From: Syntrophaceae bacterium
Lineage (GTDB): Bacteria; Desulfobacterota; Syntrophorhabdia; Syntrophorhabdales; WCHB1-27
DNA length: 17,979 nt
Assembly: GCA_003165115.1 (NCBI GenBank)
Contig: PLSJ01000086.1
Coordinates: 1 to 17,979 of the forward strand
Direction of reading: 5' to 3'
The position numbers and the translations under genes are program-made. Below, piece after piece: positions 3,601 through 9,239 of the stretch (its first letter is position 1; every line of letters starts with the position of its first letter). The notes beneath the pieces were generated by a model that had not been told where the DNA came from, did not search any database, and worked only from the letters and a program-made list of their open reading frames with translations.

Positions 3601-4364
3601 TTACTTCTTGAACCTTCTTCTTATTGCCGCAAGACCTGCGAAACCGGGACCGAAAAGAAGAAGAGCGCCGGGGACAGGCACCGGGCTTGTGTTGATAGTC
3701 AGGTTTACACCCATAAGCCAGGGTGTCATGCTGCCTTCCGACGTCGCCAGGAACGTTATCACATCCCCTGGCTTGACGCTTTCCGTAAAGACGCCAAAGG
3801 AATCGGGGCTGATACGGCTATAACCACTGCTGTAGTCGACGTTCCCGGATGTCAGCGGTGTCCCGTCCCGTTAAAGGAGAGAGACCAGCTATCGCCTCTC
3901 GACGTGCCCCACAGGGCGCCCGAGGAATCCCCCCACCAGGCGTTGCCGCTTATGCTGACCGTACCGGTAAGATTGCTGGTCCAAACGACGCTCCCTTGAC
4001 CGATGCCGGGGTACGCGGCAGTGTTCGCGGGATGCATCATGATGTCGCCTGTCTTTACGTCCGCGCCCCATTCCCCGTCCTTTATCGCCTGAAACCAGAC
4101 CGGGACATGGCCATAATTCGGATACTGTCCTACGGCCCAGGCCTGCTGGTTAATCGCGTACCCGTGGCTCGAATCGAAGTCCGATTGGTAAGGCAATAAA
4201 GTGGCGCCCTGGTAAAATGCCCAGGGCCCGTTGGGGTTGCCCCCCGGCCCGATCAGCCAGCCATCCTTAAGGTCATATGTCGCAGCATTGGTATTGTAGG
4301 ACAGGCAAAGGAGCACCAGGACGAACAGCATCGCCGCCAACTTCGTCTTCTTTAAACGTTTCAT
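3601..4364 (-). CDS. PEP-CTERM exported protein, frameshifted near residue 168
   Basis: Secreted protein with an N-terminal signal peptide (MKRLKKTKLAAMLFVLVLLC, likely cleaved after NTNA). The body is rich in beta strand, Trp, Gly and Asn (GWLIGPGGNPNGPWAFYQG, MMHPANTAAYPG, VVWTSNLTGTVSISGNAWW), as in PEP-CTERM proteins with a carbohydrate-binding-like sandwich. The first frame stops at 3852-3854 after SWSLSFNGTGHR. The neighbouring minus frame continues the same fold (PLTSGNVDYSSGYSRISPDS, VKPGDVITFLATSEG, WLMGVNLTINT). It ends in a PEP-CTERM variant sorting tail, VPVPGALLLFGPGF, then a hydrophobic stretch and basic RRRFKK, with stop at 3601-3603. One extra G in the GGG of ACGGGACA, near 3857-3859, restores an approximately 254-residue protein. 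Such proteins are sorted by an exosortase and linked to exopolysaccharide. SD is GGGGAGG, 4 bases before the ATG. The gene has a GEMM-I leader. Confidence 0.85.
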
Positions 4365-4382
4365 GAAGCCTCCCCTTCTAAA

Positions 4383-4493
4383 CCGTCTGAAACATCCGGC
4401 AGCGCGGCTGTCTACTGGAGAAGGCTCAATAAAACTATCAGAGACCCATTGCTTTCCGTCCTATGGTCGCCCATAGTTTGGCTTTTTCAGATT
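4383..4493 (-). promoter_or_regulatory. GEMM-I (c-di-GMP-I class) riboswitch
   Basis: Read on the minus strand, the leader matches the GEMM-I pattern in order. First comes GCCAAA, then a 6-bp stem CTATGG/CCATAG closed by a GCGA (GNRA) tetraloop (4461-4476). Next is GACGGAAAGC, then GGGTCT pairing with AGAC across a variable P3 arm (CTG/CAG extends it), then CAGCCGCGCTGCCGGATG. TCTGAAA at the 5' end can pair with TTTCAGA at the 3' end, closing the element. The GGAAAGC...GGGTCT...AGACAGCCG wording is like Geobacter-type GEMM-I. The ligand is probably c-di-GMP, but the cGAMP-type subclass cannot be excluded by eye. It ends a few bases before the SD of the PEP-CTERM gene, so control of translation initiation is plausible. 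Confidence 0.85.
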
Positions 4494-4503
4494 GTTTTCA
4501 TAC

Positions 4504-4530
4504 GTTATACCACGCATCACTGATTGTCAA
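4504..4530 (-). promoter_or_regulatory. Sigma70-like promoter for the riboswitch/PEP-CTERM transcript
   Basis: On the minus strand TTGACA (4525-4530) is followed after 15 bases by TATAAC (4504-4509), just upstream of the riboswitch. The spacer is shorter than the ideal 17. The boxes are otherwise near consensus. Confidence 0.55.
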
Positions 4531-4636: not shown

Positions 4637-5509
4637 CTACCGCAGACAATGCGCTTTCGCCCACGCGGCCACGTGCACCGGGCTCTCCAGTACCTCGACC
4701 CCTGCCCAGCCCAGCGCCGCCTGTTTGCCCTCGACCGTCCCCGTGCTCCCCCGCACAATCGCCCCCGCGTGTCCCATGCGCTTGCCCGGTGGCGAATAAC
4801 GTCCGCAGATGTAGGCGGCCACGGGCTTTGTCATCTGTTCCACGACGAAGCCGGCAGCCCGTTCTTCCTGTTCGCCTCCCACTTCTCCCACGATGATGAC
4901 CCCGTCGGTATCCGGGTCCTCCTCGAAAAGACGCAGGATATCGGTGAGGTTCGTCAGCACCACGGGATCGGCGCCCATGCCTACCACCGCGCTCTGGCCC
5001 ACATGGCTCTCGGAGAGTATGCCCGCGAATTCATAGGACAAAGTGCCGCTCCGGGAGATGATCCCGACGCGTCCGGGGGCGAAGAGGGACGCGGGCATGA
5101 TGCCGATCTTGCTCTTACCCGGCACAAGGATGCCCGGCGTCGTGGGACCGAGGGCAAAAACGCCCTTTGCAACGGCATAATCGCGCATCTTCATCACGTC
5201 GTTTACCGGAATGTGCTCCGGCACAACCACGATCAGCTTTATCCCCGCATCGATGGTTTCAAGGAAGGCGTCCAGGACAAACGGCGCGGGCACGAAAAAG
5301 ACCGAAGCAGTCGCGCCCGTTTCCCTGACAGCCTGCTCGACGTTATCGAAAACCGGCAGCCCTTCGACGGTCGAGCCCCCTTTGCCGGGGGTGACCCCGC
5401 CCACGACCCTGGTGCCGTAGTCGAGCATCCAGTGCGTCTGCACCGCGCCTATCCGGCCCGTGATTCCCTGCACGATCACGCGAGTTTCATTATCGACCAA
5501 TATGCCCAT
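4637..5509 (-). CDS. sucD: Succinyl-CoA synthetase alpha-like subunit (ADP/GDP-forming acid-CoA ligase)
   Basis: Alpha subunit of an NDP-forming acyl-CoA ligase, 290 residues, the family's usual length. The CoA-binding Rossmann start is VIVQGITGRIG (residues 12-21). The phosphorylated histidine is H247 in GKRMGHAGAIV. The loop GPTTPGILVPGKSKIGIMPA (121-140) is the family's substrate/CoA segment. ISRSGTLSYE and GEVGGEQEERAA are also typical. It catalyses reversible formation of an acyl-CoA at the cost or gain of one NTP, together with the beta subunit encoded 85 bp upstream. Start is ATG 5509, and the SD is weak. The GITGRIG and GPTTPG wording departs somewhat from the housekeeping enzyme, and the gene sits next to an AbfD-like dehydratase. 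Another dicarboxylate or hydroxyacid may therefore be the true substrate (inference). Confidence 0.88.
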   Translation of the reverse strand: MGILVDNETRVIVQGITGRIGAVQTHWMLDYGTRVVGGVTPGKGGSTVEGLPVFDNVEQAVRETGATASVFFVPAPFVLDAFLETIDAGIKLIVVVPEHIPVNDVMKMRDYAVAKGVFALGPTTPGILVPGKSKIGIMPASLFAPGRVGIISRSGTLSYEFAGILSESHVGQSAVVGMGADPVVLTNLTDILRLFEEDPDTDGVIIVGEVGGEQEERAAGFVVEQMTKPVAAYICGRYSPPGKRMGHAGAIVRGSTGTVEGKQAALGWAGVEVLESPVHVAAWAKAHCLR

Positions 5510-5594
5510 CGCTGGACCCCGCTATCTTCTTCGTCGCCTGTTCCCATCTCCGATCCGTCCGCCCCGATAAGGGAGACGGCACACCAAAAAGCCG

Positions 5595-6734
5595 TCACTC
5601 CGCGCCGACAAGCTCGAACAACCGCTCGACGGCCCTTTCCGTCGCGGGATCGATGACCACGTGGATGCCGCCCGAGCGGAAGATCTCCCACGTCTCTTCC
5701 TGGTGGTTGCCGAGCGCCTTCGCCACGATGGGGATTCGCACATTGTGCTCCCTGATGTAGCGCACCACGCCTTTCGCACCCTCGTGGATGGGGTTAATCC
5801 CCCCGTAGACATTGATAAGGATCGCGCGCAGACCCGGCTTCATCATCACGAGGTCCATGCACTTGTAAAGCAGGTCGGCGGTGATGCCTCCGCCCGTCTC
5901 CAGGAAGTTCGCGGGCTTCATGGTATGCGCGATGATGTCCATGGAAGCCATGCCCAGTCCGGCCCCCGAAGAGATGAGCCCGATGTCGCCGTCAAGGTCG
6001 ACGTACGTGACACCGATCTCCTTTCCCCTGCGTTCCCTGGGGTTTTCTACCCGTTCCACGGGATCGGGCAGGAGCGGCCGCAGCCGCGACAACGCGGAGT
6101 CGTCTATCTCCAGCACCGCGTCTACCGCCAGCAGCCCGCCGTTGGGGAGCACGGCCAGCGGGTTGATTTCAACGATGAGGGCCTCGAAACGGGTAAACAC
6201 CTTGTAAAGCTGGGCGATCACGTCCGTGATCGCATTCAGCAGATTGTGACCGAGCCCGAGTTTCCGAAGGAGCGCCCTGGCCTGATAAGGATAAAAGCCG
6301 ACCGTTGGGTCTACCTGTATCGACGCGATCTTTTCCGGCGAGGTGCGGGCGGTCTCTTCGATATGCATGCCGCCTTCCGTGCTCGCTACGATGACCGGCC
6401 TGCCCGTGTACCCATGTACCGTGACGCCGACGTAGAGTTCTTTCGCGATCTCCGCTTTTTCCGCGACAAGTATTTTCCTCACGGGAAAACCGTTCACTTC
6501 GGAGGTTAAAAGCTGTTCGGCCGCCGCTTTCAGCTCCTCGGGGCTGGATGCGCTCTTTATGCCGCCGGCGAGCCCGCGGCTCCCTACCAGGACCTGAGCC
6601 TTGAGCATGACCGGGTACCCAATCTCCCCGGCCACATGGACCGCCTCCTGCACCGAGCTTGCGACGCCCCGCCGAGCGACCGGAATACCCATCGATTCAA
6701 AAATGTCGGCTGCCTCGAATTCATGGAGTCTCAT
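5595..6734 (-). CDS. sucC: Succinyl-CoA synthetase beta-like subunit (ATP-grasp)
   Basis: Beta subunit of an NDP-forming acyl-CoA ligase, 379 residues against about 388 for E. coli SucC. The ATP-grasp domain begins MRLHEFEAADIF. The nucleotide loop VGSRGLAGG lies near 50-58, and the metal ligands are N191 in VEINPLAV and D205 in AVDAVLEID. The C-terminal CoA-ligase domain has GDIGLISSGAGLGMASMDII (249-268), NFLETGGG and INVYGGINPIHEGAKGVV. That last motif is usually GGIMRCDVIAEGI, so this is a divergent paralogue. ATG 6734 is chosen because homology starts there and AAGGA lies about 8 bases before it. The same frame stays open to 7175, but it would run through the promoter region and antisense to the regulator. 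It is co-transcribed with sucD. Confidence 0.88.
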   Translation of the reverse strand: MRLHEFEAADIFESMGIPVARRGVASSVQEAVHVAGEIGYPVMLKAQVLVGSRGLAGGIKSASSPEELKAAAEQLLTSEVNGFPVRKILVAEKAEIAKELYVGVTVHGYTGRPVIVASTEGGMHIEETARTSPEKIASIQVDPTVGFYPYQARALLRKLGLGHNLLNAITDVIAQLYKVFTRFEALIVEINPLAVLPNGGLLAVDAVLEIDDSALSRLRPLLPDPVERVENPRERRGKEIGVTYVDLDGDIGLISSGAGLGMASMDIIAHTMKPANFLETGGGITADLLYKCMDLVMMKPGLRAILINVYGGINPIHEGAKGVVRYIREHNVRIPIVAKALGNHQEETWEIFRSGGIHVVIDPATERAVERLFELVGAE

Positions 6735-6828
6735 GGTTGAAGTCCTTCTTCCGTGGACGATCCTTACTGCGTGGGATTTGCAAGTATAGGCAGGCTCCCG
6801 CCCGGTTGTCAATAATTGATTTGAAATG

Positions 6829-6846
6829 TGATTTAATAGTAAATCA
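6829..6846. promoter_or_regulatory. Candidate regulator operator (palindrome)
   Basis: TGATTTA-ATAG-TAAATCA is a perfect 7-bp inverted repeat with a 4-base centre, placed midway between two divergent genes, one of which encodes a GntR/FCD regulator. Size and symmetry suit a dimeric winged-helix protein. The sequence is not a classic FadR-type TGGTnnnACCA site, so assignment to the neighbouring regulator is inference. Confidence 0.45.
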
Positions 6847-6900
6847 GGGCGATACCGCGCAAAATAAAGATGAAACATCACGCTATGTTGAGGAATTTGC

Positions 6901-6932
6901 TTGACAGGCGCGCCAAAAAATGAAATTTTAAT
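6901..6932 (+). promoter_or_regulatory. Possible promoter of the GntR regulator
   Basis: TTGACA at 6901-6906 is a perfect -35. The best -10-like words are TTTTAA or TTTAAT near 6926-6932, at a spacing of 19-20, longer than ideal. The position suits transcription of the regulator starting at ATG 6981. Confidence 0.35.
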
Positions 6933-6954
6933 GCGATTTCTAATTAAATTTGCC

Positions 6955-6969
6955 GGGGGCTTTGCCCCC
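6955..6969 (+). other. Short GC hairpin just before the regulator start
   Basis: GGGGGC-TTT-GCCCCC is a perfect 6-bp stem with a 3-base loop. It lies 11 bases before ATG 6981 and abuts the only SD-like word (CAGGG, 6972-6976). There is no T run, so it is not an obvious terminator. It could affect ribosome access. Confidence 0.4.
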
Positions 6970-6980
6970 ATCAGGGTGCC

Positions 6981-7667
6981 ATGCAGAAGAAGCAGGACAG
7001 CCAGGAAGACTTGAGCCATGCGGCGTACCAGGGCCTTCGCCGCATGCTCTATAACAAGGAGCTCGTGCCGGGACAAAAGATCGCGTACCGCGAGCTTGCG
7101 GAAAGGCTGAAGATGAGCCCTACACCGATTATACAAGCACTCAAGTGGATGGAGCTGCAGGGGTTCGTCCGCCATGAGGCAAATCGGGGCTATGCCATGG
7201 CGCCTTTCAGCATAAAGGAGATCGAGGAGATTTACGAGCTGCGGGAGTTGCTCGAACCCTCACTCGTCGACGCGACCGTGCGGCGTCTCGACAAAGAAGG
7301 CGTCGGCCGGCTCAAGGCCGCCCTGGAGGCCCACCGGTCGGCACAGCGCGAGTTCTATCTGAAAGAGAGGCTTTTCAAGAACCGGGAATTCCATGTGACC
7401 CTGGCGGCCCTTTCGGGAAAGGAAACCCAGATGCGCATTCTCCAGGACCTTTTTGACATGCTCTTCCTCAAATACGGCGGGAATTATCTGCCCATGTCAT
7501 CCCTCAAGTCCTCCGACGACGATCACCAGGCGATCTATGACTCCGTGGTCCTGCGCGACGTCGAAAGGGCCAGGGCCTTGCTCGCCAACCATGTATCCGG
7601 CGTCAAGAGAGAGGTTTTGGCCAGCGTACGGCAGATGCTGGCGGAACGGGAACGGTCTGACATCTGA
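6981..7667 (+). CDS. GntR-family transcriptional regulator, FadR/FCD subfamily
   Basis: 228 residues. The N-terminal winged helix-turn-helix (about 12-75) reads YQGLRRMLYNKELVPGQKI, ELAERLKMSPTPIIQALKWM, ELQGFVRHEANRGYAM, all typical GntR. The C-terminal all-helical FCD ligand domain (about 80-215) begins IYELRELLEPSLVDATVRRL. It carries the usual metal/ligand histidines in NREFHVTL, DDDHQAIYDSV and LLANHVSGVKREV. FCD regulators commonly sense organic acids or their CoA-pathway intermediates and repress adjacent catabolic genes. Here it lies between a sucCD-like pair (divergent) and an AbfD-like gene (downstream, same strand), so it probably controls both. The SD is weak and preceded by a GC hairpin. 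Confidence 0.93.
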   Translation: MQKKQDSQEDLSHAAYQGLRRMLYNKELVPGQKIAYRELAERLKMSPTPIIQALKWMELQGFVRHEANRGYAMAPFSIKEIEEIYELRELLEPSLVDATVRRLDKEGVGRLKAALEAHRSAQREFYLKERLFKNREFHVTLAALSGKETQMRILQDLFDMLFLKYGGNYLPMSSLKSSDDDHQAIYDSVVLRDVERARALLANHVSGVKREVLASVRQMLAERERSDI

Positions 7668-7802: not shown

Positions 7803-9239
7803 ATGGGGCTTAAGACAAAAAAGGAGTATATCGAATCGCTGCGGGCGCTCCATCCCACGGCGTACATGTTCGGGGAACGGCTGACGGACATCGTCGACAA
7901 CCCCCGGATCCGCGCGGGCATCGAGGCAACGGGCGCCACCTACGAGATAGCGGAACTGGACGAATACCGGGACCTCGTGGTCACCATGAGTCCTCTCATC
8001 AACGAGCCCGTCAACCGCTTCACCCTGCCCCCTTCCAGCATCGAGGACCTGGTGGCGCGGGTAAAGGTCAACCGGAAACTGGGCAACTTTGTCGGCACCT
8101 GTCACCAGCGGTGCACGGGGCTCGACTGTCTTTCCACCCTATCCATCGTCACCTATGATATCGACCGGAAGCACCAGACCGGCTACCACAGCCGTTTCAC
8201 CGAATTCCTGAAGTACGTGCAGAAAAATGACCTGTCCGCAAACGCGGCCGTCACCGACGTCAAGGGCGACCGCTCCCTCGGTCCCTCCGACCAGGATGAC
8301 AGGGACATGTACCTCCGCGTGGTCGAAAAGAGGGATGACGGGATCGTGGTGCGCGGGGCGAAGGCCCATCAGACCGGCTCTCTTTCATGTCACGAGATCA
8401 TCGTCCTCCCGACCCGCGCACTCGGAAAGGCGGATAAGGAGTACGCCGTCGCCTTTGCGGTACCCTCCGACGCGGAAGGCTTGATCCACGTTGTCGGCAG
8501 GTCGACCCTCGACATGCGTGAGCTGGACGGCTGCGACATCGGCAACACCCTCTATTCGAAATATTGCCCCACCGTCATTTTCAACGATGTCTTCGTGCCG
8601 TGGGAGCGGGTCTTTATGTGTGGCGAGACCGAGTTCGCCCAGGAGATGGTCGTCAAATTTTCCTCTCTGCACCGCCAGAGCCACGGCGGGTGCAAGTCGG
8701 GCAAGATCGACTGCATGATCGGCGCGGCCCTCACCCTCATGGATTATAACGGGACCGCCAAGGTCAGCCATCACAAGCAGAAGATCATCGACATGATCCA
8801 CAGGGCGGAGACGCTTTACGCGTGCTGTCTCGCGGCCTCCTACGAAGGCAGCAAGCAGCCTTCGGGTTCCTACTACATCGATACGGTCCTCGCCAACGCC
8901 TCAAAACTGCACGAAGGCAAGGAGGTCGCGGAGGCGATTCGCCTCATGGTCGACATAAGCGGCGGCTTTGTGGCCGACCTGCCTTCCGACAGGGACTTCG
9001 CGAACCCCGAGGTCGGGCCGCTCCTCAGGAAGTACCTGAAGGCGGTCGACGGCCATTCCGTGGAAGACCGCATGAAGATGTACAGGCTGGTGGAAAAGAT
9101 GGCACTGGAGAGTGCCGACACCATCTCGGACATACACGGGGGCGGGTCGCCCGAGGCGCACCGGGTGACGATCTACCGGGAGACGGACCTGCCGAGCAAG
9201 AAACGGGCCGCCAAGAGACTCGCCGGGATAGACAAATAA
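7803..9239 (+). CDS. 4-hydroxybutyryl-CoA dehydratase/vinylacetyl-CoA isomerase family enzyme
   Basis: 478 residues, the full length of AbfD of Clostridium aminobutyricum (about 484), in the HpaB/acyl-CoA-dehydrogenase-like flavoprotein superfamily. All four [4Fe-4S] ligands are present with AbfD spacing: C100 and C104 in GTCHQRCTGLD, H290 and C297 in HRQSHGGCK. The AKAHQTGS segment (T191) and the final HGGGSPEAHR also match. AbfD removes water from an unactivated hydroxyacyl-CoA by a ketyl-radical mechanism and is oxygen-sensitive, which implies anaerobic life. One change stands out. Where AbfD has Tyr in HRQSYGGCK, this protein has His294, so the substrate or chemistry may differ. The SD GAGGAGGT (7787-7794) is excellent. 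The neighbours (GntR/FCD regulator, sucCD-like ligase) suggest an acid-activation plus dehydration pathway. The family assignment is firm, the substrate is not. Confidence 0.9.
   Translation: MGLKTKKEYIESLRALHPTAYMFGERLTDIVDNPRIRAGIEATGATYEIAELDEYRDLVVTMSPLINEPVNRFTLPPSSIEDLVARVKVNRKLGNFVGTCHQRCTGLDCLSTLSIVTYDIDRKHQTGYHSRFTEFLKYVQKNDLSANAAVTDVKGDRSLGPSDQDDRDMYLRVVEKRDDGIVVRGAKAHQTGSLSCHEIIVLPTRALGKADKEYAVAFAVPSDAEGLIHVVGRSTLDMRELDGCDIGNTLYSKYCPTVIFNDVFVPWERVFMCGETEFAQEMVVKFSSLHRQSHGGCKSGKIDCMIGAALTLMDYNGTAKVSHHKQKIIDMIHRAETLYACCLAASYEGSKQPSGSYYIDTVLANASKLHEGKEVAEAIRLMVDISGGFVADLPSDRDFANPEVGPLLRKYLKAVDGHSVEDRMKMYRLVEKMALESADTISDIHGGGSPEAHRVTIYRETDLPSKKRAAKRLAGIDK

Follow-up and report, generated by a model that had tools for sequence, protein, structure and literature searches.

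A repeated leader module with a predicted c-di-GMP riboswitch precedes PEP-CTERM genes in a Syntrophaceae genome

A GEMM-I aptamer ahead of a divided PEP-CTERM gene

The window (the whole 17,979-nt stretch of DNA analysed) is contig C267 of G000, a Syntrophaceae draft genome of 3.9 Mb in 521 contigs that is 75% complete with 4% contamination. The only structured RNA in the window to exceed its gathering threshold in cmscan lies on the minus strand at 4491-4394 and matches RF03167 at 60.3 bits (cut-off 59), and a genome search places RF01051 on minus-strand 4492-4395 at 57.9 bits (cut-off 35). With both families above gathering, we annotate a GEMM-I (c-di-GMP-I) aptamer at 4394..4491 on the minus strand. 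A sequence-only reading of this DNA had proposed a GEMM-I riboswitch at 4383-4493 before a PEP-CTERM gene, and had named the Rfam covariance check as the way to verify it; family, position and type of target were judged right, and only the range, slightly overlong at its 3' end, had to be trimmed. The elements on which that reading relied are all found at the places given, on the minus strand: CAAA at 4480-4477, GACGGAAAGC at 4460-4451 directly 3' of the P2 stem, GGGTCT at 4447-4442, AGACAGCC at 4413-4406 and CTGCCG at 4402-4397.

The P1 helix (4395..4491, minus strand) pairs 4491-4488 with 4398-4395. P2 (4461..4476) is a 6-bp stem, 4476-4471 with 4466-4461, closed by a GCGA tetraloop at 4470-4467 and extended by the inner pairs 4481-4456 and 4480-4457. 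In the upper P3 helix (4406..4447), as placed by the Rfam alignment and covariation, GGGTCT at 4447-4442 pairs with AGAC-AG-CC at 4413-4406. Across 22 aligned aptamers of G000 (the window's included; C402a, C290 and C506 left out), two-sided changes occur in 14 of 23 pairs, a number reached in none of 500 shuffles. Paired cells make up 88% in the drawn structure and 28-48% in slid controls, a comparison tilted towards the structure, since it was drawn from the Rfam layout on the same 22 sequences. P1 is the weakest helix (73% of cells paired; two-sided changes in three of its four pairs), and the P2 stem and inner pairs reach 99-100%.

The downstream gene is split between two frames. The first, at 3852..4364 on the minus strand with its ATG at 4364, spans 170 codons and, judged from the ORF list and from relatives, encodes a signal-like N-terminal segment and most of a passenger domain. 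The C-terminal part lies in another frame at 3604..3852, ends in VPVPGALLLFGPGFAGLAAIRRRFKK and carries the features of a sorting signal (VPVPG...RRRFKK: a Pro motif, a hydrophobic helix and a basic cluster). This fragment scores 74.7 bits with our C-terminal profile A1, of whose 18 rows it is itself one, and 14.6 bits with TIGR02595, below the cut-off of 16. No single ORF joins the N-terminus to the sorting signal in the window assembly, the break falling near 3850-3870, so that the earlier description of a PEP-CTERM gene holds for the PEP-CTERM end and fails for one intact gene (4364-3852 and 3852-3604 are separate frames). The halves are joined in a single frame in three relatives (247-255 aa), which are 81, 71 and 47% identical to the first half; PF07589 passes its cut-off of 20.7 bits on one of them (P0005, 21.9) and scores 13.7 on another (P0003). 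Because the two halves are still 81% and 78% identical to one intact relative, the break is either recent or an assembly error of the draft genome. By sequence, no relative of solved structure was found for the passenger domain (A3). Exosortase EpsH (PF09721) was not detected in G000, a 75% complete genome; of 11 genomes tested for it, seven have it, including G005, G028 and G011.

Elsewhere in the window, two adjoining minus-strand genes at 4637-7175 encode CoA-binding/CoA-ligase and ATP-grasp domains resembling succinyl-CoA or acetyl-CoA synthetase; this pair stands behind a divergently oriented regulator of the GntR/FCD type (6981-7667) and a protein of the HpaB family (7803-9239).

Aptamer-led PEP-CTERM genes across the genome

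Rfam models detected 24 (RF01051) and 25 (RF03167) aptamers in G000, and R1, a covariance model built from the 22 aligned aptamers, detected 31 at E<0.01. PF07589 gave 10 matches at E up to 10, of which 3 were above its cut-off; since this model alone is too short for genome counts, we made profile A1 from the C-termini of 18 genes. A1 identified 37 PEP-CTERM-type ends at E<0.01 and one cut off by a contig end (C108:2-58, E 0.14), a total of 38 that includes A1's own 18 rows and two weak matches of 20.6 and 22.2 bits. Such an end follows 26 of the 31 R1 aptamers on the same strand within 1.7 kb, against a chance expectation of about 0.8% per aptamer; these 26 are spread over 21 contigs and cover 25 of the 38 genes. 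Thirteen C-termini have no aptamer: three of these are found at the edge of a contig, and another belongs to a gene that comes second after one with an aptamer. Because aptamer-led genes supplied the rows of A1, the approach is circular and may undercount PEP-CTERM genes that lack an aptamer.

No PEP-CTERM C-terminus was found within 1.7 kb of five aptamers (C283:7134, C410, C291, C355 and C100); in the first two cases the gene runs off its contig before that distance is reached. The C100 aptamer heads a same-strand exopolysaccharide cluster, a presumed operon, that encodes an export protein, a chain-length determinant, a tyrosine kinase, a glycosylphosphotransferase and a glycosyltransferase. 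Searches of seven proteins of this cluster gave TIGR01007 and TIGR03025 above cut-off, and the best models included TIGR03027 and TIGR03007 of the XrtA/PEP-CTERM system, both under cut-off.

Six of the 31 aptamers have diverged below the Rfam level, all of them before PEP-CTERM genes; both C271 aptamers are without P3, and C284:2342 contains an assembly gap. We note decayed aptamers before PEP-CTERM genes at C395, C301, C271 (two) and C409 (L056, L053, L055, L051), with Rfam scores of 25.2 bits for C395 and 23.4 bits for C301 and no match for the other three. At C402:9105-9453 (L017) two aptamers stand in tandem, separated by about 150 nt; both have a promoter match of their own, and by eye the upstream one has G and the downstream one A at the position-47 equivalent. 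A GGAGGTGA-like element lies shortly 3' of the aptamer, with about 60-150 nt then leading to the start codon, in seven leaders (C108a, C407, C402b, C283a, C7, C108b, C318); it might encode a leader peptide or serve as a structural partner.

The sequence-only reading had connected the riboswitch to biofilm and matrix functions, and the genome supports this link, with 26 of 31 aptamers before PEP-CTERM-type ends and one before an exopolysaccharide cluster. As the predicted c-di-GMP sensor is repeated before most PEP-CTERM-type genes found in G000, a single signal probably induces an entire coat of matrix proteins.

A shared promoter overlapped by an inverted repeat

Upstream of the window aptamer, a -35 box TTGACA (4525..4530, minus strand) stands 15 nt before a TATAAC -10 box (4509-4504), a 12/12 match to TTGACA/TATAAC. 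A pair of this type scoring at least 9/12 is found in 27 of 30 G000 leaders and in 13% of shuffled upstream sequences, TATAAC being the family's own reference and the spacer mostly a short 15-16 nt. In 26 of the 27 matching leaders the promoter ends 5-12 nt before the aptamer, and among the five decayed copies named above it is kept in four and lost in C395.

Covering the -10 box is an operator-like inverted repeat, GTGATGC-N3-GTATAAC in the window (4504..4520, minus strand) and GTkATrC-N3-GTATAAC in its general form. Over 22 leaders the arms show a mean of 4.3 of 7 matches compared with 1.7 for shifted arms, and none of 5000 arm shuffles did as well. A stricter form has eight exact matches in G000, the window not among them; all eight are at aptamer leaders, two of which have decayed aptamers. 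The repeat suggests a second input, by a protein that would bind it.

Predicted ligand

We mapped Vc2-type position numbers on the P2 frame as given in the portions of PMC3764141 available to us (loop 32-35, pairs G45-C22 and G14-C93), which also describe A47 as stacking between two guanines. On the minus strand of the window the A47 equivalent is 4455 and the G20 equivalent is 4482; position 20 is treated as a selectivity factor, and as no hard filter, in the accessible part of PMC9262584. Both bases are invariant in the 22 aligned G000 aptamers. Equally invariant is the C at 4399 (minus strand), which we take to be the C92 equivalent and count among the ligand bases. The upstream C402a aptamer, outside this alignment, seemingly has G at the position-47 equivalent.

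Riboswitches for cGAMP (GEMM-Ib) carry A at the position-20 equivalent, a mark absent from the window, where 4482 is G. Inspection of this base, which the earlier reading had singled out for the choice between the two dinucleotides, thus favours c-di-GMP together with A47 and C92; on these base identities the window aptamer is predicted to bind c-di-GMP, and cGAMP is an unlikely ligand. G000 has eight GGDEF-domain matches, seven of them above cut-off.

A predicted switch at the start codon

The Shine-Dalgarno sequence GGGGAGG (4369..4375, minus strand) lies 4 nt before the ATG at 4364. In the minimum-energy fold of the free window leader, the P3-loop strand (4418..4435, minus strand) is its predicted partner: 4435-4429 pairs with 4364-4358 and 4427-4418 with 4375-4366, hiding both Shine-Dalgarno and AUG. 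Their probabilities of being unpaired are 0.22 and 0.02 in the free leader and rise to 0.67 and 0.35 when the aptamer is forced, at a cost of 11-13 kcal/mol. The loop-RBS duplex is worth -22.9 kcal/mol (z -3.3; 1 of 300 loop shuffles). Among 13 aptamers joined in turn to the downstream leader of the window, the window's own hid the start region best and freed it most (0.25 free, 0.42 forced), and none of the 12 foreign aptamers matched it in either respect. Energy folding of this kind is blind to tertiary contacts and to co-transcriptional order.

Other leaders share this pairing as a weak tendency at most. The mean z for P3 loop and RBS is -0.58 in 12 short and -0.49 in 10 long G000 leaders and 0.02 in 12 G005 leaders, z is positive in all three G028 leaders, and in the aptamer-swap folding the gain is at most 0.01 in 4 of 13 leaders. 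These loop-shuffle figures skip 9 of 46 leaders with an unparsable loop or start (1 of 23 from G000, 8 of 20 from G005), omit C410 and C402a beforehand and include certain doubtful automatic start choices. P3-loop/anti-SD pairing is therefore unsupported as a regulon-wide mechanism, most siblings being without the platform.

A different platform is present in G005, where intrinsic terminators (-15.5 to -21.4 kcal/mol) in 4 of 20 leaders use the last 10-11 nt of the aptamer as the beginning of their 5' arm (C46:5301, C8:85342, C27:6832 and C27:10087; L087, L088, L091 and L092). Both on C27 precede PEP-CTERM genes; C46 and C8 have none within 1.7 kb. Terminator control finds no support in G000: in the leaders scanned, no strong hairpin followed by a T-run overlaps the end of the aptamer, and the candidates C402a (-9.8 kcal/mol), C283a (-11.3) and C98b (-7.9) are weak. 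One aptamer subtype thus occurs with two platforms, the terminators of G005 and the leaders of G000. Modelling predicts both the window's P3-loop/RBS design and the terminator-overlap design of G005 to be ON switches.

Together our computations identify an aptamer, its ligand bases, a repeated module and an alternative fold, and we consider it probable that a PEP-CTERM gene in the window is turned ON by a class I c-di-GMP riboswitch, itself one copy of a repeated promoter-repeat-aptamer module. In the model that we favour, this module begins with a sigma-70-type promoter whose -10 box is covered by an inverted repeat, continues with the aptamer, and is repeated before most PEP-CTERM-type genes found in G000 and one exopolysaccharide cluster. 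In the unbound window RNA, the P3-loop strand would pair with the Shine-Dalgarno and AUG and block translation. Binding of c-di-GMP at the P1/P2/P3 junction (G20, A47, C92) would close P3, and closure would break the loop/RBS pairing and let ribosomes start. We infer the ON direction from the folds, and ligand binding from the bases at the junction.

The window could instead hold an OFF switch, or share with its siblings a general mechanism near P1 as in Vc2, which the accessible part of PMC9262584 presents as a translational OFF switch; the P3-loop pairing would then be a folding artefact of one leader. The pairing is missing in most siblings, and in short leaders the Shine-Dalgarno lies merely some 10-20 nt behind P1, as this reading would have it. 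We nevertheless judge it unlikely, given the window-specific statistics from loop shuffles, forced-aptamer folding and swaps, and given the ON design of the four G005 terminator leaders, two of them before PEP-CTERM genes. Less likely again is that the window copy is a decayed leader whose gene is broken and whose riboswitch is no longer used: the frame break between 4364-3852 and 3852-3604 and the decayed aptamers in other G000 leaders would fit, whereas the ligand bases, helices and promoter of the window are all intact.

A change of ligand is the least probable of these departures, and we would be surprised by it. RF03167, the top Rfam match, outscores RF01051 by 2.4 bits in the window, which would make the aptamer a c-di-GMP-I-GGC variant, and a cGAMP riboswitch is the other form that such a change could take. 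The name GGC appears to denote the bases at positions 20/47/92, as we infer from the RF03167 consensus, which has G at position 47. The window lacks that G and has A at 4455, so its top label is no sign of the GGC variant; sibling aptamers are likewise labelled RF01051 or RF03167 on a difference of few bits, and the window has G20 and not A20.

Distribution in the order and beyond

Among 41 genomes of the order, G000 included, RF01051 matches occur in 10 and A1 matches at E<=0.001 in 14. G005, from another family of the order, has 67 PEP-type ends and 22 aptamers (17 above the Rfam cut-off); 17 of the 22 aptamers have a PEP-type end no more than 1.7 kb downstream, and one more stands before an 828-aa frame. 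PEP-type ends also follow three of five aptamers in G028, namely those whose inner P2 pairs are CC/GG, and the single aptamer of G011. They follow none of the aptamers in G001 (0/8), G003 (0/6), G033 (0/2), and G002, G017 and G034 (0/1 each); in G001, G002 and G003 the aptamers belong to the GC-pair subtype, mostly have a GAAA loop and precede other genes. The subtypes separate largely and not fully, with GAAA loops in two CC-type G005 aptamers and several P3 receptors outside the simple patterns used for sorting. G008 and G009 have PEP-CTERM ends (5 and 6) without any RF01051 match, so the link between aptamer and PEP-CTERM is not obligatory.

Two G005 aptamers have A at the position-20 equivalent, including C15:21377-21481 (L094), whose gene starts very much like that of C23:562-666 (L093), where the aptamer is G20; C58:2779-2878 (L095) is a third locus grouped with them. 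C15 and C23 look like duplicates, of which the first could sense cGAMP and the second c-di-GMP.

The C21-G46/GYGA subtype is widespread among the matches listed. We rejected the idea that it is dedicated to PEP-CTERM genes generally: a PEP-CTERM-type first gene, called by our own profile, follows 14 of 123 sites among the matches listed, which come from named genomes and viral contigs and in several cases have little or no downstream DNA. Of these 14, L193 looks spurious, and by eye L125, L132 and L182 are PEP-CTERM-like too. Because the CC/GYGA subtype serves many kinds of gene outside the order, its dedication to PEP-CTERM genes is lineage-specific. The viral-collection contig L242 (IMGVR_UViG_3300040744_000142) has the same subtype before a PEP-CTERM-type gene, and may be a provirus, host DNA or a carried gene.

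Relation to sigma-54 control of PEP-CTERM genes

In the available text of Haft et al. 2006 (PMC1569441), a sigma-54/PrsR motif is reported before 99 of 167 proteobacterial PEP-CTERM genes, and the regulators of many PEP-CTERM genes are said to await discovery; the accessible part of PMC3333781 reports that a D. vulgaris regulator of the PrsR kind bound its predicted PEP-CTERM targets. We found no -24/-12 site of at least 9/10 in the 250 nt before the aptamer of 18 G000 leaders (best 8/10), and the best PrsR (TIGR02915) score in G000 is 438 against a cut-off of 502.6. Of five PEP-CTERM genomes tested, TIGR02915 exceeds its cut-off in G009 and stays below it in G000, G005, G028 and G011. In G009, a 9/10 sigma-54 site is present in three of five PEP-CTERM leaders examined and in two cases lies 4 nt upstream of the first codon at which translation could start; an R1 search of four G009 stretches returned no aptamer. 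The PrsR comparison covers five genomes, with G000 incomplete, and the sigma-54 sites were scored in G000 and G009 only.

We give an even chance to a broader proposal, in which classical PrsKR/sigma-54 control has been replaced in some lineages by a two-input module, a transcription-factor operator over a sigma-70 promoter combined with a c-di-GMP riboswitch, which duplication carried to most PEP-CTERM genes and an exopolysaccharide cluster, so that c-di-GMP would set matrix proteins and sugar at the RNA level. The riboswitch and PrsR/sigma-54 would then be alternatives inside one order. The aptamer module is a concrete candidate for a regulator through which c-di-GMP, as the main biofilm signal, would act on exosortase substrates, and a rise in c-di-GMP would turn on dozens of surface proteins at once. 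The decaying copies offer a natural series for the gain and loss of a riboswitch regulon.

Comparison with known systems

The window aptamer shares with c-di-GMP-I (GEMM-I, RF01051) the common fold, G20/A47/C92, the three-helix junction, a GNRA tetraloop on P2 and a receptor region in P3. It differs in its inner P2 pairs (C21-G46/C22-G45 instead of G21-C46), its loop (GCGA instead of GAAA) and its P3 (GGGUCU/AGAC-AG-CC instead of the 11-nt receptor), and despite these differences scores within RF01051. Overall length and P3 sequence resemble c-di-GMP-I-GGC (RF03167), whose score is just above cut-off; the consensus of that family departs from the window at position 47.

Many-copy GEMM-I regulons are known from Geobacter, where the parts of PMC8835794 available describe 17 GEMM-I copies in G. 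sulfurreducens, 12 of them shown to bind cGAMP. G000 has a many-copy regulon as well, whereas its aptamer bases predict c-di-GMP and its targets are of the exosortase type. The nearest precedent is Methylophaga nitratireducenticrescens GP59 (PMC12530212), for which the accessible text places four of seven c-di-GMP riboswitches beside PEP-CTERM or VPLPA-CTERM genes and reports higher transcripts in biofilm for 10 of 11 riboswitches of all types, with the PEP-CTERM-linked Ribo5 transcript higher in planktonic cells. A c-di-GMP riboswitch beside a PEP-CTERM gene is thus already in print. The four PEP-CTERM-linked copies of this methylotroph lie within 18 kb; the 26 of G000 are scattered over 21 contigs and have a promoter and an inverted repeat in common. 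None of the titles or abstract openings we searched describes a regulon of PEP-CTERM genes led by aptamers across a whole genome, subscription literature lying outside that search, and PMC10599522 shares only words with the topic; the dedicated regulon looks new. Like the PrsK/PrsR/sigma-54 system as presented in the available text of PMC1569441, it places one cis-element before many PEP-CTERM genes; that system combines a sigma-54 promoter with a response regulator, whereas G000 combines sigma-70-type promoters with a riboswitch.
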